Below, in pieces: positions 29,512-40,044 of a DNA stretch of 42,005 bases. Position numbers and translations under genes: made by a program. The notes under the pieces were generated by a model that made no database searches, was not told the origin of the DNA, and saw nothing but the letters and a program-made list of their open reading frames with translations. Origin of the DNA: Bacteroidota bacterium (GTDB taxonomy: Bacteria > Bacteroidota > Ignavibacteria > UBA10030 > UBA8401); assembly GCA_030679145.1 (NCBI GenBank), contig JAUXTU010000017.1:1-42005 (forward strand). The letters are read 5' to 3'. Every line of letters begins with the position of its first letter. Position 1 is the first letter of the stretch.

Positions 29512-30435
29512 TTATGAACCTCCCTTTGCAAAAAGGGAGGTTTTTTTATTCCATTTTTTAACGACAATCTTTTGTTGCCCGTGCATTTGTATCGGTGTTA
29601 ACATCGAACAACTCAGATGTGGTCGCTTCGTATTGTAAATCATAATTGACTGAGCGACATGCTGTTGTGCTATTTTTTCATCTTCAAATTTTTCATCACA
29701 ATAAAATTCATCCTTCAAAATCCCATTAACTCTCTCAGCGATAGCATTATCATACGGACTCCCGTCCTGAGTCATACTGATTTCACAATCATGACCACGA
29801 AGTTCATTGATATATAGTGAACTACAATACTGCAATCCACGATCAGAGTGGTGAAGCAGCACCCGATCAGGATACATTCTATTCTGGAATGCCATCTGTA
29901 GTGCTCTCTGTGTTGATTCTGCTTTTAAATCTTTGCTGAGTGTGTATCCCATTATTTGTTTGGAATACGCGTCAGTTACTAAATGCAAATACAGTGTCTG
30001 TTGTTCCGTGTTCATATAGGTAATATCAGCAACCCAGAGTTGTTCCGGATGAGTCAATGATATGTCTTTTGCTCGATCCGGGTATGTGCGCATCCAATGC
30101 TTAGAATCAGTTGTTTTTGTATACTTCTTCCGTTTGGTAATCAATAAGCCTTTTTCACCGATTATCTCAAAGAGTTTATCACGACCAACAGCAATCTGGT
30201 CATTCACAAAATCATCCTTATAACAGATAATACAATTTCCGTGTGCCGATTCGTGGTTGTTCCCGACGAATAGCAATTACTTTCCCGATAATCTTTTCGT
30301 TCCGAAGAGTATTAACATTTTCACTCTTCCGGACTTTGTAATAAGCTTGTTTACTAAAACCAAGATGTCGGCAACTCGAACGTATGCTTATTTGTCTTGC
30401 TTCGGCGGCCAGTTCTCGGACAACTTGGTGGCGAT
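29512..30435 (-). pseudogene. IS3-family transposase OrfB, frameshifted
   Basis: After the slippery heptamer the -1 frame reads HRHQVVRELA and then SIRSSCRHLGFSKQAYYKVR, the usual IS3 OrfB start. It continues to REQPRIGTRKLYYLL and hits TAA at 30218-30220. The rest continues in the +1 frame from KDDFVNDQIAVGRDKL. The simplest reading is a single inserted T between the TTA and AAG codons. The downstream part carries the rve integrase core with the DDE triad: D in VADITYM, D in LLHHSDRGLQYC, E in NAIAERVNG. Without a repair the full transposase cannot be made. Confidence 0.85.
29517..29547 (+). terminator. Terminator-like hairpin at the IS left end
   Basis: AACCTCCCTT (29517-29526) pairs with AAGGGAGGTT (29533-29542), followed by seven T residues on the plus strand. 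It encodes the last residues of OrfB in the opposite sense. The orientation would block rightward transcription entering the IS, but the leftward side has no T-tract, so it need not stop transcripts heading to ppa. Confidence 0.45.
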
Positions 30436-30771
30436 GTTTTTTCGTACATCCCCGCCAATATCTCGGCTCGTTATTTCTATCAACTTCTCATACACCATCA
30501 ACTTCTCTCTGGCTTCTCTTAACTCGTGTTCTAACTCTTTGATGCGTCGCTTCTGTGGGTCTTTCAAGCTTCGTCCTATAAATTTATTCTTCGGATAATA
30601 CAATCTACCATACTTTCGACACCACTGCAATATTCGGTCATGTCCTTGGATCTGATATTTTCTCGACAGATCTTTTTTGCTATATCCTCCTCGTTCATAT
30701 TCCCTCACTACTTGACGCTTCAATGCTTCACTATATTGCTTTTGACCGGGGTGCGTAATTGTTATTTTCAT
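30388..30771 (-). CDS. IS3-family transposase OrfA
   Basis: The 127-aa protein starts at ATG 30771, directly after a very strong AGGAGGAGAA ribosome binding site; a start 12 codons earlier lacks one. It has the helix-turn-helix text YSEALKRQVVREYERGGYSK followed by KDLSRKYQI and ILQWCRKYG, then a leucine-zipper-like helix (RRIKELEHELREAREKLMVY). OrfA binds the IS ends. The 3' part overlaps orfB, and the frameshift signal lies at 30436-30442. Confidence 0.92.
   Translation of the reverse strand: MKITITHPGQKQYSEALKRQVVREYERGGYSKKDLSRKYQIQGHDRILQWCRKYGRLYYPKNKFIGRSLKDPQKRRIKELEHELREAREKLMVYEKLIEITSRDIGGDVRKNIATKLSENWPPKQDK
30436..30442 (-). promoter_or_regulatory. Programmed -1 frameshift slippery site A-AAA-AAC
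   Basis: On the minus strand the orfA frame reads CGA AAA AAC, which contains the canonical heptamer A AAA AAC. Slipping by one base leads exactly into the orfB frame (CAT CGC CAC CAA). This is the standard IS3 mechanism for making the OrfAB fusion transposase. Confidence 0.8.
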
Positions 30772-30826
30772 CAGTTCTCCTCCTGTTTGTTCGTTGACTG
30801 TGGTCAACTTTTCTCAGGACGAGACA

Positions 30827-30829: not shown

Positions 30830-30866
30830 TAAAAAAAAGCCCCGAGACAATTATTGCCTCGGGGCT
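30830..30866 (-). terminator. Rho-independent terminator of the envelope operon
   Basis: On the minus strand AGCCCCGAG and CTCGGGGCT form a 9-bp GC-rich stem over an 11-nt loop, followed by TTTTTTTT. It lies 22 bp after the stop of the tandem-domain lipoprotein gene, and the IS is inserted directly beyond its T-tract. Confidence 0.92.
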
Positions 30867-30887: not shown

Positions 30888-31958
30888 CTATTTAAGTTTC
30901 AACGAGGCAACGATCTTTTCAAACGCCGGCTTGAATTCAGCCATCGGCTGATACCAGGTCAATACGATCTGATAAATGCGTTCTCCTTTTGTCACAAAGA
31001 ACACCTTTCGCTCAATATTCTTAGCCGGAGATGATGCAACGACTGTTACAGAGTTGATACCATCGATCTTATCAGAGCCGGTCGATTTCGGTTTAAATTT
31101 TGCTTTATTATCTTCAACAAATTTTTCAAACTTCACTTCACCCTTATCTGTTTTTGTCAGGAAAATTTCAAGATCGAATGTACAATCTTTTCTCAGACCT
31201 TCAACATGCAATGAATGAATCGCTCCACCTTTTTTCTCCTTTGGCATCGTTACGTCAAAATTCTGCGGGTGCTCAAACTCGACAAAATCGTTGGTAAACT
31301 TTGTTACATCCGGTGAAGGAAGCGATGCAGCATTCGGATCTTTATAAGAAACTTTTGGTTTTGGTAATTTTATAGATTCGATAATTTTTTCGAGCAACGG
31401 TTTATACACTTCAAAATATTCATTAAACCCGGAAATGCTGACGGTATAGAATGCGCTATCATGAGCGATGATCCATTTTTCTCCTCGCAAATTTGTTTCT
31501 TTCCCAACTTTAACACCGAAAGAGAATTTGACACCGGTCTCTTTTCCAAATGAAGCGGGCTGTTCGTTAGAAAGATTAAGCGGTCCATAACTGTCAACTG
31601 ATTTTGCTTTATATCCATCAAGCGTTCCAACGTTTGCATCAGCAAATCGTTCCGAACTTACTTCAATTTCCACACCGCCTTGTTCTTCATTAATTGTGAT
31701 ACTTCCTTGAGTATAGAAGTCGTAGAATTTATCAGCAACAATTTGTGAAGAATATATCTTTGTCCGTTTTGGATCGCTGTTTCGCAGCCACCCTTTGGGA
31801 TATTGAATCTCAGATCCGTTGATTGGATCTTGGTATGTTTCCCATTCCGTAATAGTTGGTAATTCAGCTTTTTTCTTGCACGATGTTATGGTCAATGAGA
31901 CCAGAACAACAACGAACAGTGTTGCCGTAAACGCACCATGTGAAAATACTTTTTTCAT
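30888..31958 (-). CDS. Lipoprotein with two tandem PsbP/DUF1795-like domains
   Basis: The 356-aa protein has a signal peptide ending in ITSC (lipobox, Cys about 27) followed by KKK. Two similar halves follow. The first (about 38-195) goes from EWETYQDPINGSEIQYPKGW to YKPLLEKIIESIKL. The second (about 215-356) goes from FVEFEHPQNFDVTMP to FKPAFEKIVASLKLK. The P-x-x-F/W start and F-x-KI--S-KL end resemble PsbP/DUF1795 domains. Function unknown. It lies 39 bp after the TPR gene and just before a terminator, so it is probably the last gene of the operon. Confidence 0.78.
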   Translation of the reverse strand: MKKVFSHGAFTATLFVVVLVSLTITSCKKKAELPTITEWETYQDPINGSEIQYPKGWLRNSDPKRTKIYSSQIVADKFYDFYTQGSITINEEQGGVEIEVSSERFADANVGTLDGYKAKSVDSYGPLNLSNEQPASFGKETGVKFSFGVKVGKETNLRGEKWIIAHDSAFYTVSISGFNEYFEVYKPLLEKIIESIKLPKPKVSYKDPNAASLPSPDVTKFTNDFVEFEHPQNFDVTMPKEKKGGAIHSLHVEGLRKDCTFDLEIFLTKTDKGEVKFEKFVEDNKAKFKPKSTGSDKIDGINSVTVVASSPAKNIERKVFFVTKGERIYQIVLTWYQPMAEFKPAFEKIVASLKLK

Positions 31959-31997
31959 AGATCACCTTTTGGTTGAGTGGTTTTATTCAAAATAGAC

Positions 31998-33719
31998 TTA
32001 TTTTCCGCAATTCATTTGTGTTGATTCTTTTTTTGCGCTCTGATTCTTTGGATTGATCTTTAATACTAGTTGATATTCGGCGCACGACCGCGCACGGATC
32101 GCTTTTGCTTCAGCTGAGGTCAATTGCAGATCACCGCTTTGAACCGCTAACATTTGGGCTAAAAACAAGTGCAATCCTTCATCTTTTTTTTCTTTTTCGT
32201 ACGTCAAGCCTTTTTCTAGCTTCTCAATGGCCCCAGGAATATTCTTGTCTTTATATTCAAATAATGCAAGAGATTTATAAGCACCAATAATGAGTTGCGT
32301 TTGCAGTACCGTTTTGGTGGGATCTGCCTTCATAATGCTGTCCGCAAGACCAATCATCAAGGTTGCATGGTATCGGCCTTTGTCAACGGAATCCTGAAGA
32401 CTATAAATTTGTACAAGCGATTGATGATATTGCGGATTGTTGGGTCGGAGCGCAACAATCCTTTTATAGTAATTTTTTGCGGTATCTATTTTATCGAGCA
32501 CAAAATATGAATACGCAGTCCAATATAGAGCCGTAATATTTTTTTGATCCTTCACAAGTAATTTTTCATACTGCACAACAGCTTTATCATATCGTTTTTG
32601 ATTCAAAAAGATAGCCGCTAATGTACCGATCGCATCGGAGTTACTACTATCCAAATTAAGTGTTTTTTCAAGAAAATTTATGGCATTGATGGTATCTTTC
32701 ACTTGAAAATATGAATACCCCATTCGATACATTTCTTCGGCACTCAACGAATCTACAATAAATGTTTTATATAGATCGAGTGATTTTTGATATTCTTTTG
32801 CCAAATAATAAGAATGTCCCAGCATTGATTTCAGTTCTTTATTCTTTGAATTCAATTTGATCGATTGTTCTAGTGCCGGAATTGCTTCTAAATAGATTTT
32901 CGCATTGTAGAGCGATACGGCATACATCTCCCACGCATCCACATTATCTTTCTTTAGCTCAGTATATTTTTTAAAGAATTCTGCTGCCTCACGCCAATAC
33001 ACTTTTGTGCGATACATTGTATATGCAGCATCATAGATCACTTTGTCGTTCGTTGGATCAAGTCTGATCGATTCCTGCAAATGCAGCATCACTTCAGTTA
33101 TTTGTGTCGCATTCAAACTGCGGTTCTTAAGTATAGAGAGTGCAAGTTTATAATGAAGGAATGCACTTGTGGAATCCAAGTGCACTGCCGTTCGTAGATT
33201 TTCAACGGCAAGGACAATAATATTTTGACGTGCATAAACTTCGGAAAGTCCGATGTACACTTCAATATTCTTTGAATCGATTTCTTTAGCCTGCGAGAAA
33301 TAGATCGAAGCTTTATCAAGTGAATCCAATTCAAGATAGGTTTGACCGAAAGCCAATGGGCATATAACACTATTTTTATGATACTTCTGTGCCATCTTGT
33401 ATTGTTTTGCAGCTTTATCCCACAAACCAAGTTTTCCGTACACACGAAGAATTGAGGCAATAGCCGGTTCAAATTCGTCATTAAAATCTAATGACCGCTC
33501 TAAAGATATTTGTGCATTCTGGATATCTCCTTTTTGCCGGAAGGTTTCTCCAAGATAGTAATGTGCTTCTGCATTTCGTGAATTTGCAGCAATAAATTTT
33601 TGGAAGGATTGAATTGCCTGATCGTATGATTTTTTTTCAAGCGCAGCTTTCCCAAGCGAAAGATCATCTTGCGCAAAACTCAATGACGTAATTAACAACA
33701 GAACGAACAAAACTCTCAT
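31998..33719 (-). CDS. Large periplasmic TPR protein
   Basis: The 573-aa protein has a signal peptide (MRVLFVLLLITSLSFAQ). About a dozen TPR units with A-x-Y-x-L-G/A-x8-A consensus fill it: AEAHYYLGETFRQKGDIQNA, EVYIGLSEVYARQNIIVLAV, AEEMYRMGYSYFQVKDTINA and ITALYWTAYSYFVLDKIDTA. The C-terminus is Cys-containing and basic. TPR arrays assemble protein complexes. It sits 15 bp downstream of the PstS-like gene and is probably part of the TonB-driven machinery. The TPR character is clear; the partner is inference from order. Confidence 0.88.
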   Translation of the reverse strand: MRVLFVLLLITSLSFAQDDLSLGKAALEKKSYDQAIQSFQKFIAANSRNAEAHYYLGETFRQKGDIQNAQISLERSLDFNDEFEPAIASILRVYGKLGLWDKAAKQYKMAQKYHKNSVICPLAFGQTYLELDSLDKASIYFSQAKEIDSKNIEVYIGLSEVYARQNIIVLAVENLRTAVHLDSTSAFLHYKLALSILKNRSLNATQITEVMLHLQESIRLDPTNDKVIYDAAYTMYRTKVYWREAAEFFKKYTELKKDNVDAWEMYAVSLYNAKIYLEAIPALEQSIKLNSKNKELKSMLGHSYYLAKEYQKSLDLYKTFIVDSLSAEEMYRMGYSYFQVKDTINAINFLEKTLNLDSSNSDAIGTLAAIFLNQKRYDKAVVQYEKLLVKDQKNITALYWTAYSYFVLDKIDTAKNYYKRIVALRPNNPQYHQSLVQIYSLQDSVDKGRYHATLMIGLADSIMKADPTKTVLQTQLIIGAYKSLALFEYKDKNIPGAIEKLEKGLTYEKEKKDEGLHLFLAQMLAVQSGDLQLTSAEAKAIRARSCAEYQLVLKINPKNQSAKKESTQMNCGK

Positions 33720-33734
33720 CTCTTTATCCTATCT

Positions 33735-34682
33735 TTATGGGGTATTCAATTGAACTAAACGTACGGGCATTGTTGCCGGAACAAGTCCGTTACTTACAAT
33801 AATCTTTTGTCCATCTGAACTTGCCGCGAACGTTATAAATCCGAGACCGACACCTTTCCCGACATTGTGGGAATAAACATAGATCGTCCGGGTAAGCGGA
33901 TAATATTTCCGATAAATGTGTGCTTGATGCGGTAAAAAATATTCTATCTCTGTTGAAGAACTATCACGCTTAAAATTCGGATCACCGATTTCCAGCGCTT
34001 TTAGGTTCTCCGGCATTTTAGAGAGCCATGATGTTCCTATAAAACCGATGACATTTGGACGTTCATTAACGATCGAAAAAATCTCCGAAGACGTTGAACA
34101 CGGATAAAACGATTGGGTCAATGAATCAGTACCTAAAACTCGTTTCTTTACGAATTCATGAACACCGCTGTTTGGGTCTCCCATCGCAACAATAATGGCA
34201 CTCGTAAGCGATGAACCTTTTACTTCAGACCATCGTCCAATTTTCCCCGAAAGAATTTTACGCAATTCAGTGATATCGAGTTTTGCAAGCGAATTTTTCT
34301 TGTTGACAACAGCTGCAACACCATCATATGCGATCTTAATAGAATCAACTTCAAGATTATTTTGAGCGATCACCATTCGCTCTTCGTCATTAAATTCTCT
34401 TGCACAGACGATCAACTTAACACTGTCATTAAGCATTTGCACGATTGCTTCGCGTGAAGTTGATGATCGGTTGACAATCTTTACCTGCTCATACATCCTT
34501 TGAAAATCTTTTACTTGAATATCAATCACCGGAAAAACATCTTCCGATGTGATCATCGTAAGACTCCCGCTGGTAAGAGTCTCACGTTTTTCATTCGAAC
34601 ATGAAGTTAGTACGGCAACAGAAATGAGAATTAGAAGTGCAACAACAAAACCGTTACGGTTATTACATCTGACGTTCTTCAT
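33735..34682 (-). CDS. PstS-like phosphate-binding lipoprotein
   Basis: The 315-aa product from ATG 34682 has a lipoprotein signal (basic start MKNVRCNNRNG, then a helix ending VLTSC). The mature part has PstS-family features: TSGSLTMITSEDV, NRSSTSREAIVQML, LIVCAREFNDEE, DELRKIL-like LDITELRKILSG, DPNSGVHEFVKKRVLG, and VIGFIGTSWLS. PstS binds phosphate for the PstSCAB ABC importer. No pstC, pstA or pstB is nearby; instead the gene follows tonB and exb genes. A longer start at 34748 would overlap the preceding gene more and destroys the signal. The 5' end overlaps the small membrane gene by 20 bp. Confidence 0.87.
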   Translation of the reverse strand: MKNVRCNNRNGFVVALLILISVAVLTSCSNEKRETLTSGSLTMITSEDVFPVIDIQVKDFQRMYEQVKIVNRSSTSREAIVQMLNDSVKLIVCAREFNDEERMVIAQNNLEVDSIKIAYDGVAAVVNKKNSLAKLDITELRKILSGKIGRWSEVKGSSLTSAIIVAMGDPNSGVHEFVKKRVLGTDSLTQSFYPCSTSSEIFSIVNERPNVIGFIGTSWLSKMPENLKALEIGDPNFKRDSSSTEIEYFLPHQAHIYRKYYPLTRTIYVYSHNVGKGVGLGFITFAASSDGQKIIVSNGLVPATMPVRLVQLNTP

Positions 34683-34878
34683 CTTCGTGCCGCTGTTTAA
34701 TCCGCAGAGAAACAAATCGATAGAGTCCATAAAGAAGAAGTACGACACCGAACATTATTCGGGATTTTTCGGGAATATTGTATTCTGCAGGGATCAGAAA
34801 GAGCACATAAAGACCCAGCACCGTAAATATTCCCGCCATAGCATAACTGAAATACACAAATATCTTATTTGGATCCAT
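34663..34878 (-). CDS. Small two-TM membrane protein
   Basis: The 71-aa product has two hydrophobic segments (about 7-29, VYFSYAMAGIFTVLGLYVLF, and about 41-57, IMFGVVLLLYGLYRFVSL) and a charged end (RIKQRHEDEERQM). I recognise no family. It lies between tonB (8 bp away) and the PstS-like gene (20-bp overlap) on the same strand, so it is translated in the operon. A role as an inner-membrane partner of the TonB system is inference. Confidence 0.75.
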   Translation of the reverse strand: MDPNKIFVYFSYAMAGIFTVLGLYVLFLIPAEYNIPEKSRIMFGVVLLLYGLYRFVSLRIKQRHEDEERQM

Positions 34879-34886
34879 CCTAAATA

Positions 34887-35618
34887 TTATCGCCCGGCAT
34901 TCAATCTAAATTTAAATGGAATAGAAACCCAAACTGAAACCGGACCGTTGTTCATGATTGCCGGAGTAAATTTCCACTTCATAGCAGCATCAATAGCAGG
35001 CTGGTTAAATAATTCTGCATCAGATTTCAATACCTGTGCTTTTTTGGGATTACCTTCTTTGTCAACCCAGATCTTCACCCAGACTGTTCCTTCAACACCG
35101 GCACGACGTGCAATTTCAGGATATACAGGCGAAGGATTGTTTCCAGGAAGCGGTTGCGGTTGTTTTTCTACCGGTACGAAATCTGGTGGCGGACCATCTT
35201 CTTCAATCCTTATGTCCTGTTCAATCTCAACGGGACCGCCTCCATCTCCTTCGCCGATTGGAGCGGTGCTCGACATTTCTTCCTGAGTTGCAATTGTCTG
35301 CTCAGGATTAATTTCTGCGTCCGGAACAGGAACAGGCGTTCCAACTGTCGGTTTTGCTGTCGGCGCTTCAACGGATACCGCGGGTGCTGTTTGAGAGTTT
35401 TGAATTGAAGGAGGCGGACCGAGATCGCTGTATTTCATAATGCGAACTGAATATACCGGTTCGTCCTCTTCCATTAATTTCCCTATGCCGTAATAAGCAC
35501 CCATACCCAACAAGTGAAAACTGCCCGCAATAATTAATGCAGTAACAGAATACTTTTGAGTTAATGTTCTCATTTCTTTGTAACCATAGGCGACACTTGG
35601 TGCAGTAGTCGTTGCCAT
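34887..35618 (-). CDS. tonB: TonB-family energy transducer
   Basis: The 243-aa protein starts with a short cytosolic stretch and one TM (about 24-45, YSVTALIIAGSFHLLGMGAY). A Pro/Glu-rich periplasmic linker follows (about 65-160), then the TonB C-terminal domain (about 163-243): SPVYPEIARRAGVEGTVWVK, WVDKEGNPKKAQVLKS and AAMKWKFTPAIMNNGPVSVW. It passes proton-motive force from ExbB-ExbD to outer-membrane receptors or to other envelope partners. ATG 35618 has AAGGAA 7-8 nt upstream. It lies directly after the second exbD gene. Confidence 0.93.
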   Translation of the reverse strand: MATTTAPSVAYGYKEMRTLTQKYSVTALIIAGSFHLLGMGAYYGIGKLMEEDEPVYSVRIMKYSDLGPPPSIQNSQTAPAVSVEAPTAKPTVGTPVPVPDAEINPEQTIATQEEMSSTAPIGEGDGGGPVEIEQDIRIEEDGPPPDFVPVEKQPQPLPGNNPSPVYPEIARRAGVEGTVWVKIWVDKEGNPKKAQVLKSDAELFNQPAIDAAMKWKFTPAIMNNGPVSVWVSIPFKFRLNAGR

Positions 35619-35642
35619 AAAAATTATTCCTTACTCTTTAAA

Positions 35643-36152
35643 TTACAACGTTCCGATGATTTTTTTATCCGCATCTAACATCGGTGCTAAACTAAATCTA
35701 GTGATACTATTGATGTTCAATTCATCCATAATATCCACCATATCAATGTACTTTGCTTTTCCATCGACTTTGATCAATGTGATTAATTTTGGATTTGCAG
35801 CATTTCGTTCTTTCAATAATTTCCCAAGATTAATCAATTTTTCTTTTCTCTCTTTCCCGTCAACTGTAACTGGGTCTTCTTCTGCTATATTCCAGAATAT
35901 TCTAAAGTCTTCTGAAATCCGAAGGGTCAACAAATTTGTCCCGGCAACTGGAACATCAATCTCTTTTGGTGGCAAGTTAATTTCCATCGTCTGGGGTTTA
36001 CTCATTGATGTCGTAAGCATAAAAAAGGTCAATAACAAAAATGCAACGTCAACCATTGGTGTCATATCTAGACGGACGGCAATTCGTTTCTTCTTTTTCT
36101 TACCGCCGTGTTTTTGTTTACCTTTCGATTGCGATAGATCTACATCTGCCAT
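35643..36152 (-). CDS. exbD: ExbD-family biopolymer transporter (second copy)
   Basis: The 169-aa protein has a basic Lys-rich cytosolic tail (GKQKHGGKKKKKRIAVRLD) and one TM with the essential Asp in DMTPMVDVAFLLLTFFMLTT. A periplasmic ExbD domain follows, with PKEIDVPVAGTN and KLITLIKVDGKAKYIDMVDI. It works with ExbB to channel protons and energise TonB. It is the second of two adjacent, different ExbDs, an arrangement common in Bacteroidota. The ATG at 36152 has GGAGT upstream. Confidence 0.93.
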   Translation of the reverse strand: MADVDLSQSKGKQKHGGKKKKKRIAVRLDMTPMVDVAFLLLTFFMLTTSMSKPQTMEINLPPKEIDVPVAGTNLLTLRISEDFRIFWNIAEEDPVTVDGKERKEKLINLGKLLKERNAANPKLITLIKVDGKAKYIDMVDIMDELNINSITRFSLAPMLDADKKIIGTL

Positions 36153-36174
36153 AGGGTGTTACTCCTAATTAAAA

Positions 36175-36630
36175 TTATTTTTCCATATTTGTTACAAGAT
36201 TAAAGCGGGTTATGTGTTCTTGTTGAAGAACTTCCATAACGCTTTGAATTACTTTGTATTCAGATTGCTGATCCGCCTTGATTACTGTACGAAGTTTTGG
36301 ATTTCTAATGCGCGATGTCCTAAGCAATTCCGGTAATTCTGCCAATGTTACTTGCATGCCTGCTTTCAGAGCGTATTGTTGTCCAAACACGGCGGCCCGA
36401 AGGTTTTGATTATCTAGACCAAGGAAAACTCCTCCATCTTTATCAACAGTAACCGTCATAACATCACTATCGGGAAGTTTAATTGCAGAATGTGATTCAG
36501 GAATAATTACTTCGGCTACATCTTGAGCTTTAAATGTTGTTGATAACATAAAAAATGTCAGCAATAAAAACCCTACATCCACCATCGGGGTCATATCAAG
36601 CTTGAATCCGACACGTTTTTTCTTTGACAT
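36175..36630 (-). CDS. exbD: ExbD-family biopolymer transporter (first copy)
   Basis: The 151-aa protein has a short basic start (MSKKKRVGFKLDMTPMVDVG) with the TM Asp and then LLLTFFMLSTTF. The periplasmic part includes ALKAGMQVTLAELPELLRTS and KLRTVIKADQQSEYKVIQSV. It follows exbB by 20 bp and precedes the second exbD by 22 bp. AGGAGT precedes the ATG. The two copies may form mixed ExbD dimers. Confidence 0.93.
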   Translation of the reverse strand: MSKKKRVGFKLDMTPMVDVGFLLLTFFMLSTTFKAQDVAEVIIPESHSAIKLPDSDVMTVTVDKDGGVFLGLDNQNLRAAVFGQQYALKAGMQVTLAELPELLRTSRIRNPKLRTVIKADQQSEYKVIQSVMEVLQQEHITRFNLVTNMEK

Positions 36631-36650
36631 ACTAACTCCTGCGAATGAAA

Positions 36651-37373
36651 TTATTCGTGTTTGGATTGCAAGTTCATCATAATATCTTTACTTGCTTCAT
36701 CGATCATATAGGTCATACCATCGATCTTTGTTGTAAAGAAGTTGTAAGCAACAATTGCAACGATCGCAATTGCAATTCCACCTGCAGTATTGATAAGGGC
36801 TTCGGAGATACCGAGGGAAAGAGCAGCCGAATCAGTTGCACCTGCTTTTGCCAGAGCAGCGAAAGAACGAATCATACCAAGCACCGTTCCAAGCAGTCCC
36901 ACCATTGTTGCAATTGAAGCAATTGTAGAAAGTGAAATAAGATTCCGTTCTAAGATCGGCATTTCAAGCATTGTTGCTTCTTCGATCACACGTTTTACTT
37001 CTTCCATTTTTTCTTTCTTGTTCAAATCTTTTTTCGGCATTAATTCCTGATATCGTTCCAAACCGGTTCTTACAATATTCGCCATTGAACCGCGTTGTGC
37101 ATCACACGCAGCGATAGCGGCGGGGATATCATTCGAGTTTAAATTAGTGACAAGTGTTTTAAGGTATTTCGGAAGCGGACCGCGACCTCCTGCTTTTTTC
37201 AGAGAAAGAAGCCGTTCAACAATATATGTTAACACCATGATCGAAAGAGCTACAAGCGCTACAACAAGAGGACCGCCGTCCTTAACAAATTGTGGCAGTG
37301 TAAATTCAAAGATCAAATATCCAAGTATAAATGCACCGAAGAGGATGACTAAGTTGAGTGTACCTTGTTTCAT
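36651..37373 (-). CDS. exbB: ExbB/TolQ/MotA-family proton channel protein
   Basis: The 240-aa protein has TMs at about 5-22 (LNLVILFGAFILGYLIFE), 34-53, about 145-170 and about 185-210. The ExbB signature is in LISLSTIASIATMVGLLGTV and MIRSFAALAKAGATDSAALS, with LGISEALINTAGGIAIAIVA. It forms the pentameric proton channel around ExbD. AAGGAG lies upstream of the ATG. It follows the STAS gene by 43 bp. Confidence 0.94.
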   Translation of the reverse strand: MKQGTLNLVILFGAFILGYLIFEFTLPQFVKDGGPLVVALVALSIMVLTYIVERLLSLKKAGGRGPLPKYLKTLVTNLNSNDIPAAIAACDAQRGSMANIVRTGLERYQELMPKKDLNKKEKMEEVKRVIEEATMLEMPILERNLISLSTIASIATMVGLLGTVLGMIRSFAALAKAGATDSAALSLGISEALINTAGGIAIAIVAIVAYNFFTTKIDGMTYMIDEASKDIMMNLQSKHE

Positions 37374-37416
37374 AGAACGACTCCTTGTAATGAAATATTT
37401 ATTGATTTAAAGTTAT

Positions 37417-37764
37417 TTACTTTGCTATTGCGTAAATCGCGTCTTCACGCTTTTCCGCTGTGGTAAAGATCGTTGAAAGCTTTGTTACGACAAAAATGTT
37501 CGTGATGCTTTTGTTAGTATTACAAAGAATAAACTTACCCTGACGATTAGTGTATGATGTGTGTGCCGAGACCAGTGCACCTATCGCCGATGAATTCAGA
37601 TACTCAACATCACCAAGATCAACTATCAGTTTGCGGTTCCCCTGTTCAAGCAATGATGCAACTGCTTTTTTAAGTTCGTCAGTTTCATCGCCTCCGACTA
37701 ACGATCCTTTCGGTTCAAGGATGACCACTGACCCATCATTAATAGACGAAGATTTAATTTTCAT
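37417..37764 (-). CDS. STAS-domain protein (anti-sigma factor antagonist type)
   Basis: The 115-aa protein is a single STAS domain: SVVILEPKGSLVGGDETDEL, RKLIVDLGDVEYLNSSAIGA (containing the D-L-x-x-V-x-Y-x-[D/N]-S-S-x-[G/A] phosphorylation motif, Ser about 58-59), and FILCNTNKSITNIFVVT. SpoIIAA-type proteins are switched by a serine kinase and bind anti-sigma factors. No kinase or sigma gene lies near it. It is the first gene of the operon with exbB, exbD and tonB. AAGGGG is 9 nt upstream of the ATG. Coupling a STAS switch to TonB energy genes is unusual. Confidence 0.9.
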   Translation of the reverse strand: MKIKSSSINDGSVVILEPKGSLVGGDETDELKKAVASLLEQGNRKLIVDLGDVEYLNSSAIGALVSAHTSYTNRQGKFILCNTNKSITNIFVVTKLSTIFTTAEKREDAIYAIAK

Positions 37765-37833
37765 TGCGAATGCCCCTTACGATGAGAATATATTGAGGGT
37801 GCTAAGACTGCCATCAATTTTAATAATATAATG

Positions 37834-37862
37834 AAGATAAAGATAGAGAAATCAAGTTGCAA
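37834..37862 (-). promoter_or_regulatory. Possible promoter of the STAS-exb-tonB operon
   Basis: On the minus strand TTGCAA (37862-37857) and TATCTT (37839-37834) are spaced by 17 bp, upstream of the STAS gene at 37764. The match is moderate; sigma70-type reading may not apply fully in this phylum. The remaining part of the 177-bp gap shows nothing else that I recognise. Confidence 0.3.
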
Positions 37863-37941
37863 TAAGAAATTTCGATGATTTTCTTAATATTCAGCATTAT
37901 ATTTTTTGACGTAAAGAATGAAAATCTACACTAATTATGGT

Positions 37942-40044
37942 TTACTGTTTAATAATTTTCCGTTTTAATTCATCAACACTATTTGTCGGAAGTTCACAAG
38001 CATAATTTTTGCACAAATATGCCGTTGGTTTCCCATCAATCAGGCGTAATTCTTTTGTAAAAGAAAGTTTTGAATCAAAAAAAACTCTCTGTGAATCATT
38101 CATTACAATTGTATTCAAATTTGGCGTGAATTCTTCGGCAATAGAATCGAGGAAAAATTCTGCATTGCTCGATTGTTCAAAAACAATCACAAGATGCTCT
38201 GGCGGCGAAAGGAAATATTCCAGCGTTGCCATTAATTGGGGCATTACTTGTGGAGATTGAACTAATAAAGTACAGAAATGCTTCAATGTTTTTTGAGCAT
38301 AATCTTTCAAAGATTGATCATTCGTCAATTCATACAGTCTGAGCAGATTCATCACTGCAATAGAATTTCCTGTTGGTTCTGCACCATCATACGCTTCTTT
38401 CATTCGTACCAGTATAGAGTCATCTTTTCCTGATGTATCGTAAAATCCACCTTCAGCCGAATCCCAAAACAGTGTGATAGTCCTCCCTGTTAATTCTTCC
38501 GCCCATTGCAGCCAACGCAGATCAAACGTTGATTGATAAAGATCCACCAGACCGTAGACCAAAAACATATAGTCTTCAAGATGAGCTTCATATTTTACTT
38601 CTCCATCACGATACCGGCGAAAAAGAATTTTCTGTTCGGGATTATATATTGTTGTGAAAATAAATTCAGCTGCACGGATTGCGGCAGTTAGGTATGCCGG
38701 TTCATGAAGTGTTCGTGATGCCCTCGCCAACGCTCCTATCATCAGTCCATTCCACGATGTAAGAACTTTATCATCACGCTGAGGACGAGGACGTTTATTT
38801 CTTACCTCAAGTAATTTCTTCTTTGACGAAGAAAGCGATAAACGAACTTTATCAGTTTTTAACGAAAATTGTACGGCTGTTTGTTCTATCGTAAACGGGT
38901 TAAACAAAATATTTTTATCAACAAATTCCTGATGCGGATCGGAAAATGCATTTCCATTTTCCTCAACACCGTAATGATAACAGAATATCTTTGATTCATC
39001 AGCGGTCAAAATAGTATCGAGCTCAGATTTTTTCCAGACATAGAATGCACCTTCAATCTTATGTCCCTCTTTTTCAAGATCGATACTATCTGCATCTTCT
39101 GCAGAAAAGAATCCTCCCTCAGCCGACGTCATATCACGAAGAACATAATCACTCGTTTCGCGTGCAACAGTCGCAAAAAATTCATCTTTGGTAATCTGAT
39201 ACGCATCGAGATATGAATTTATTAATTGCGCTTGGTCATACAACATCTTCTCAAAATGTGGAACACGCCACTGCGTATCAACAGAATAGCGATGGAAACC
39301 TCCGCCAAGATGATCGTACATTCCTCCGCTTGCCATTGCCATCAATGTGGTGAGAGACATCTTCAATGCTTCTTGATCTTTTGTGCGATAATGATACCGG
39401 AATAAAAAATTAAAAATAACCGGACGGGGAAATTTTGTTCCATTTCCGAATCCCGCAAATTTTGGATCGTATCCGGCTGCAATCTGATGATACGTTCGCT
39501 TCAAAATAATATCATCAAGTTCGGTACTTTTACTATCAACAAAATGACGATGCTGTAATGCTTTTGTTAATTCTTCTCCTGAGTTGAGAACATTATCTCG
39601 ATCGCTCTGCCATACTTCGTTTATTCTTTCAAGCAATGACGGAAATCCAGGACGATTATATCCATCGTTCGGCGGAAAATATGTTCCGCCATAAAAAGGT
39701 TTTAAATCTGGTGTAAGAAATACAGAAAGCGGCCAACCGCCCTGTCCAGTCATTGTCTGGACGGCTGTCATATAAACTTTATCAACATCCGGGCGTTCTT
39801 CCCTGTCAACTTTAATGTTCACAAAGTATTTGTTCATCAATGCGGCGATCGATTCATTCTCAAATGATTCACGCTCCATTACGTGACACCAATGACATGT
39901 TGAATAACCGATAGAAAGGAAAATCAGCTTGTTCTCCTGCTTGGCTTTTTCAAACGCTTCATTCCCCCACGGGAACCAATCGACCGGGTTGTTTGCGTGT
40001 TGTAATAGATAAGGAGATTTTTCGGTCTTAAGTTTATTAGACAT
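37942..40044 (-). CDS. YyaL/SPATA20-like thioredoxin-fold protein (DUF255)
   Basis: The 700-aa protein begins with the DUF255 thioredoxin-like domain (about 1-165): [19 protein letters not shown], the CHWC redox motif at 50-53 ([15 protein letters not shown]), and [21 protein letters not shown] long (alpha/alpha) barrel domain follows, like N-acyl-glucosamine epimerases and glycosidases, with [36 protein letters not shown] and [13 protein letters not shown]. The length is normal for the family. The precise activity is not established. No signal peptide is seen. It is followed by the promoter region of the STAS operon. Confidence 0.92.

Follow-up and report, generated by a model that had tools for sequence, protein, structure and literature searches.

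A widespread ExbB-ExbD-TonB operon with a PstS-fold lipoprotein lacking phosphate loops, from an Ignavibacteria-related Bacteroidota

The DNA examined here is contig JAUXTU010000017.1 of GenBank assembly GCA_030679145.1, taken at its full length of 42,005 nucleotides and called the window below; the genome to which it belongs comprises 3.83 Mb in 123 contigs. The nearest named relatives are metagenome-assembled genomes (MAGs) filed as Ignavibacteriae, Ignavibacteriales or Bacteroidetes, and the organism is therefore an Ignavibacteria-related member of the Bacteroidota. On the minus strand, from 37764 down to 30888, lies a block of nine genes: STAS, ExbB, ExbD, ExbD, TonB, SMP, PstS′, TPR and LIPO. 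An earlier reading made without database searches (the sequence-only reading) had named these genes in this order, on one strand and with short gaps, and all of them proved to be present as described. The features are listed here; labels beginning with G, C, L and f in the text are our own, for genomes, contigs, loci and families.

37833..37864, minus strand: promoter-like block TATTGCAACTTGATTTCTCTATCTTTATCTTC upstream of STAS (footprint, window against seven related loci)
37417..37764, minus strand: STAS-domain protein of the anti-anti-sigma type, 115 residues (PF01740, E 4e-15; TIGR00377, 59.7 bits, cut-off 53.45)
36651..37373, minus strand: predicted proton channel of the ExbB/TolQ type (PF01618, E 2.6e-32)
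36175..36630, minus strand: ExbD paralogue 1 (PF02472, E 3e-23)
35643..36152, minus strand: ExbD paralogue 2 (PF02472, E 5.5e-26)
34887..35618, minus strand: TonB (PF03544, E 2.9e-21; TIGR01352, 67 bits, cut-off 27.1)
34663..34878, minus strand: SMP, 71 residues with two hydrophobic segments (sequence and hydropathy; homologue directly 5′ of PstS′ in 38/40 relatives)
33735..34682, minus strand: PstS′, a PstS-fold lipoprotein (PF12849, E 1e-26; LTSC lipobox; structure model)
31998..33719, minus strand: TPR protein, 573 residues, N-terminus resembling a signal peptide by eye (PF07719, E 9e-33, and other TPR models)
30888..31958, minus strand: LIPO, a lipoprotein of two similar, PsbP-like domains (internal repeat; model; Foldseek)
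30838..30866, minus strand: predicted intrinsic terminator (13-pair stem, 8 GC, then a T-run), beginning 21 bp after LIPO

The gaps in gene order are 43, 20, 22, 24, 8, −20, 15 and 39 bp. As none is longer than 43 bp, there is little room for independent promoters between the genes, although promoters inside genes are possible; the block is operon-like and presumably gives a single transcript. SMP was read from the sequence, being shorter than the length limit of the open reading frame list, and no Pfam family scores above its cut-off for it. The start of PstS′ was taken as the ATG at 34682, which is the most likely one and overlaps SMP by 20 bp; the list gave the GTG at 34748.

Conservation of the block was examined by searching 60 genomes (this one and 59 relatives) with PstS′, which matched in 57/60. 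The 42 relatives (of 59) with the best scores were considered, and all but G043 and G055 contributed one locus each, giving the 40 relative loci, whose genes were labelled with profiles built for this analysis. Six core genes (ExbB, ExbD, TonB, SMP, PstS′ and TPR) lie together in 37/40, and the gene order is therefore beyond chance; of the three exceptions, two are contig ends and one has a long PstS′ call that runs into SMP. STAS is found upstream in 36/40 and LIPO downstream in 18/40, and pstC/A within 7.5 kb in 0/40, other permeases not having been searched for there.

Among named genomes a scan turned up 249 relatives. The 80 retained for comparison overlap the relative loci in part and lean to close relatives. 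All six genes are together in 68/80, with TPR adjacent in 80/80, SMP in 76/80, STAS in 41/80 and LIPO in 17/80. The loci include Pontibacter, Ohtaekwangia and Bacteroidales MAGs, besides single records filed under KSB1, Latescibacterota and Eisenbacteria. Across the phylum, the PstS′ profile at 1e-15 matches 305/395 genomes, canonical PstS included, and from these 40 stronger and 20 weaker loci were chosen by E-value and family. The stronger loci hold all six genes in 22/40, an adjacent TPR gene in 33/40 and TonB in 32/40; the weaker ones hold all six in 5/20 and have pstC/A nearby in 10/20. The arrangement is thus widespread in the Bacteroidota. Its motor part is ordinary, and the accessory set with its apparently re-purposed PstS makes it a variant of the Ton operon.

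In seven named loci (L247, L250, L256, L266, L269, L270 and L276) the order is SMP-PstS′-TPR-ExbB-ExbD-ExbD-TonB, so that the halves of the operon are exchanged and the linkage is retained. A chance neighbourhood was considered and rejected, since the block is conserved across families and the linkage is kept in the swapped-order loci. Two further arrangements were seen among the named loci. In Prevotella sp. oral taxon 299 (L296) ExbB-ExbD-ExbD-TonB is followed on one strand by five more open reading frames matching the TonB profile, about 2 kb without labels and then PstS′-TPR, which puts an array of six such frames (2047-6727 of L296) between ExbD and PstS′. L246, L251-L254 and L274, whose records are assigned to Flammeovirgaceae, Parachryseolinea, Ohtaekwangia, Dawidia and other taxa, continue past the TPR gene with a second ExbB-ExbD pair.

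Family f16 shows that the operon is modular. TonB-SMP-PstS′-TPR is found without ExbB within 7.5 kb in 18/18 loci, and STAS-ExbB-ExbD-ExbD lies at a separate locus in the 4/4 genomes of the family that were checked. PstS′, SMP and TPR therefore travel with TonB, and STAS travels with ExbB; STAS, given also its position in the relatives, is no peculiarity of this genome. In a comparison of 18 hand-chosen genomes, 11 are without this type of ExbB (best E 1.7e-25 to 1.5e-19). No Ton-linked PstS′ was found in those 11 (the G203 locus was not fetched and a second match in G073 was not examined); their best PstS match stands beside pstC/A in eight, two have no match, and G203 was left out.

The sequence-only reading had considered that PstS′ may be a ligand sensor and proposed that its pocket be inspected. 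The fold is kept: the structure model (mean pLDDT 89.5) superposes on phosphate-binding proteins, the best in the PDB being 4gd5 (Z 31.1, root-mean-square deviation 1.5, 241 residues). The TIGR02136 score is 117.8 bits, below the cut-off of 206.6, and alignment with E. coli PstS places TSED, TSRE and SGV at the positions of the loops GSxT, G[ST]G and SGT. The three patterns describe the phylum's own pst-linked PstS, loop 1 of E. coli PstS reading GATF instead of GSxT. Each occurs in 11/11 of these pst-linked sequences, as against 0/81, 0/81 and 7/81 of the Ton-linked proteins and 2, 0 and 2 of 14 unclassified PstS. One protein, L137, which has both pst and TonB, SMP and TPR neighbours, was moved by hand from the 12 pst-linked to the Ton-linked set; otherwise the pst-linked counts would be 11/12. 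The alignment columns that hold E. coli Asp56 and Arg135 are non-discriminating, with Ser in 11/11 and Arg in 5/11 of the pst-linked PstS. A FastTree phylogeny puts the Ton-linked proteins and 12 unclassified ones in one group without any pst-linked PstS (support 0.76), and the lipid-anchor Cys is present in 82/83 PstS′ when Bacteroides and Prevotella are added. Because two loops found in 11/11 pst-linked PstS are lacking in 81/81 Ton-linked homologues, PstS′ is unlikely to sense phosphate; another ligand is possible.

The cleft of PstS′ looks re-purposed and not simply decaying, having been adapted either to another ligand or to internal contacts. Conservation percentiles within the Ton-linked family are high at S46 (0.88), E47 (0.93), A79 (0.87), R95 (0.98), N171 (0.90) and S172 (0.94). 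R77 is invariant in 29 members of the order and Arg stands there in 54/81 of the wider Ton-linked set. The first six positions, all at or above the 87th percentile, and the intact fold of the model would suit a still functional binding protein for a non-phosphate ligand, which it would sense or receive from TonB-dependent receptors and for which TPR would be the relay. That explanation seems to us somewhat doubtful: the remaining positions in or beside the cleft loops have percentiles of 0.10-0.83, R95 and S172 are also conserved in canonical pst-linked PstS, the cleft could be held shut by E47 and R77, and none of the 40 relative loci has the pstC/A genes within 7.5 kb.

The motor genes bear out the claim that the set of TonB motor proteins is complete, as ExbB, both ExbD and TonB exceed their Pfam cut-offs (PF01618, PF02472 and PF03544) and TonB also exceeds that of TIGR01352. 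In the whole genome there are only two MotA_ExbB matches, one in the window and one on contig C10, and eight TonB_C matches in seven frames. TonB-dependent receptors give 19 PF00593 matches, the weakest at the cut-off and none linked to the block. The absence of PstCAB and of a TonB-dependent receptor, which had suggested a distinct envelope system, thus holds for the block, but both are present elsewhere in the genome, and with 19 unlinked receptor matches the missing linked receptor is insufficient for that suggestion. The E. coli Ton motor is also encoded apart from its receptors. On contig C57 a complete pstS-pstC-pstA-pstB-phoU run was found, the PstS of which passes TIGR02136 (267.1 bits vs a cut-off of 206.6); a use of the block's PstS′ by this pstCAB, which would have undone the earlier view, is not indicated, since the run has a full PstS of its own. 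Given the clear TonB (67 bits with TIGR01352), the 19 receptor matches, the single other MotA/ExbB locus and the separate pstSCAB-phoU, the block is probably the general Ton motor of the genome.

The explanation that we favour, at a probability of about 0.5, is a general-purpose Ton energiser in which SMP, PstS′ and TPR are accessories acting together with TonB. ExbB and the two different ExbD subunits would draw on the proton gradient to power TonB, perhaps its unlinked paralogues as well, and the unlinked TonB-dependent receptors of the genome would be opened in this way; Bacteroidota depend on such receptors for glycans, heme and vitamins. SMP would lie next to TonB in the inner membrane, PstS′ would be a lipid-anchored accessory of TonB with a rebuilt phosphate cleft, and TPR would be a periplasmic scaffold, the three positioning or holding TonB in the periplasm without phosphate transport. 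STAS would be a component of the ExbB-ExbD half and may control how much of it is made or how active it is. It is possible, and we put it forward tentatively, that SMP, PstS′ and TPR make up a periplasmic complex that partners TonB and has not been described before, with STAS switching the ExbB-ExbD half. A phosphate-binding protein would then have become a working component of a force-transducing machine, as a TonB clamp or a sensor of envelope load.

Several observations weigh against the general Ton motor with its accessories, and the first are the scores of the motor proteins themselves. The window ExbB scores 114.2 bits with the tolQ model vs 73.3 with exbB, and both ExbD fit the tolR model better than the ExbD ones. 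All of these scores are below cut-off: none of the NCBIfam equivalog cut-offs for exbB, tolQ, ExbD and tolR is reached by the window proteins, and the choice between Ton and Tol is not settled by these models. The second motor set of the genome, on C10 (L045, 4937-12350), consists of a channel, an ExbD and a transducer behind genes for a 999-residue TPR protein, an unassigned protein of 583 residues and a protein with a SPOR domain. For its channel tolQ is the best-fitting model (109.1 bits), its ExbD scores slightly higher with ExbD_2 (64.5) than with tolR (57.1), and its transducer is barely over the Pfam cut-off for TonB_C and under that of TIGR01352 (25.2 bits, cut-off 27.1). Profiles do not assign this set to Tol or Ton, and it could be a second Ton motor. 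A TolB_N search of the genome gave one weak and indecisive match (E 1.8e-4).

The Tol-Pal operon has the layout tolQ-tolR-tolA-tolB-pal-cpoB, and the block resembles it in joining a motor, a transducer, a lipoprotein and a TPR protein in one operon. An L,D-transpeptidase-like gene, moreover, lies within the locus in 18/18 loci of f16 (L277-L294, L137), the Pfam family YkuD having been demonstrated for L137. Together with the better fit of ExbB and both ExbD to tolQ and tolR, these likenesses would be explained if the block were a Tol-Pal-like envelope machine for outer-membrane cohesion or division, nutrient uptake not being its main role. We consider this unlikely. By Pfam the block has no TolB or Pal domain, the C-terminal domain of its TonB is over the TIGR01352 cut-off, and the C10 set could be the Tol motor of this genome. 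In Riemerella, where a gene for a phosphate-type binding protein stands 3′ of exbB-exbD-exbD-tonB2, loss of tonB2 impairs the use of hemin and iron according to PMC4446302.

A second point against the favoured explanation comes from f16, in which pstCAB lies upstream on the same strand in 16/18 loci (several kb off in two), with pstC/A within 7.5 kb in 14/18; a unit downstream of pstCAB keeps a link to phosphate open. If the operon served phosphate acquisition, PstS′ would be an alternative phosphate protein that feeds PstCAB and is energised by TonB. Such a role is very improbable, because the phosphate loops are lost, also in the f16 member L137 (one of the 81), and a separate and full pst locus is present in the window's own genome. 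A second, stronger PstS-type match is found, furthermore, in 21/21 f16 genomes, and the 40 relatives have no pstC/A near the block.

The association of the accessory genes with the motor is also imperfect. In family f27, ExbB-ExbD-ExbD-TonB is without adjoining SMP, PstS′ and TPR in 3/3 genomes, apart from one weak SMP match on the opposite strand; two of the three encode a same-clade PstS at another locus (L166 and L168). At L128, L144 and L148, PstS′-TPR has no recognised Ton gene nearby, where a divergent TonB may have been missed. Four of the 40 stronger phylum loci (L131, L134, L138 and L147, from f40 and f25) have tandem pairs of PstS-like proteins of the same clade and no recognised Exb or Ton gene nearby. 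Finally, the apparent orthology of the window TonB and Riemerella TonB2 is an argument from published gene order and not from a comparison of sequences, and no study or experiment on SMP, PstS′ or TPR was found in the literature searched, which covers the Bacteroides tonB papers incompletely. We cannot say that the block is undescribed.

STAS passes the TIGR00377 model, which describes the anti-sigma antagonist superfamily, and its Asn-Ser pair (N57-S58) is invariant in 16 aligned sequences; Ser58 we take to be the phosphoacceptor, by analogy with SpoIIAA. No partner kinase or sigma factor for it is encoded in the block (the rest of the genome was not searched for them). LIPO consists of two halves that are similar to one another (hhalign probability 96, E 3e-9). 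The top Foldseek matches of its model (pLDDT 84.9) are PsbP proteins, at E 3e-6 and covering one domain. LIPO is mostly confined to the home family, with further matches in L089, L132, L258 and L260.

A promoter for the operon was sought by footprinting because a scan with the sigma-70 consensus was uninformative, giving 16 sites in the window, fewer than the shuffle mean of 24.4. Most of the upstream sequence is not conserved between the window and the seven loci, which are from the genus and family, whereas the block TATTGCAACTTGATTTCTCTATCTTTATCTTC is for the most part shared. With up to three mismatches it has one match in the window and none in 100 shuffles (0/100), and it resembles what we take to be a Bacteroidota promoter. 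Further upstream is a gene for a DUF255 (thioredoxin-like) protein at 37942-40044, which has the same position in 11/40 relative loci, all from close relatives. At the other border, about 30 bp past the terminator, an IS3-like element with two transposase frames occupies 29512-30807 on the minus strand.

The conserved, motor-linked accessory set, with a PstS that appears to be re-purposed away from phosphate, provides a defined list of genes for testing. Some related phenotypes have been published. Transposon insertions in an exbD gene and a TPR gene, possibly of this block, nearly abolish hemolysis in Riemerella (PMC7881567). Flavobacterium psychrophilum that has lost exbD2 shows impaired growth when iron is restricted (cited in PMC9331221). 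TonB3 of Bacteroides fragilis, one of six TonB proteins and possibly the TonB of this block, serves many receptors (cited in PMC11658791).

Compared with known systems, PstS′ shares its fold with canonical PstS (TIGR02136, e.g. PDB 4gd5) and differs in the sub-cut-off TIGR02136 score, the missing loops and the lack of a linked PstCAB in the genome. The TonB2 system of Riemerella anatipestifer (exbB2-exbD21-exbD22-tonB2) has the same order of motor genes followed by the gene for a phosphate-type binding protein. The upstream gene there encodes leucyl-tRNA synthetase, and the accessible part of PMC4446302 makes no mention of STAS, SMP, TPR (0 occurrences of the term) or LIPO and names the binding protein only as a neighbour. 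The present results advise caution in naming PstS′ a phosphate ABC transporter protein, as was done in that paper. The Exb-Ton-PstS-TPR order that the sequence-only reading placed in other Bacteroidota does recur, for instance in Bacteroides finegoldii. In the RefSeq annotation of that organism (UHF62_RS03335-03310), in which, unlike in the window, no STAS, SMP or LIPO was recognised, ExbB-ExbD-ExbD-TonB-substrate-binding protein-TPR lie on one strand as they do here, and the loops of its PstS′ are non-canonical like those of the window protein.

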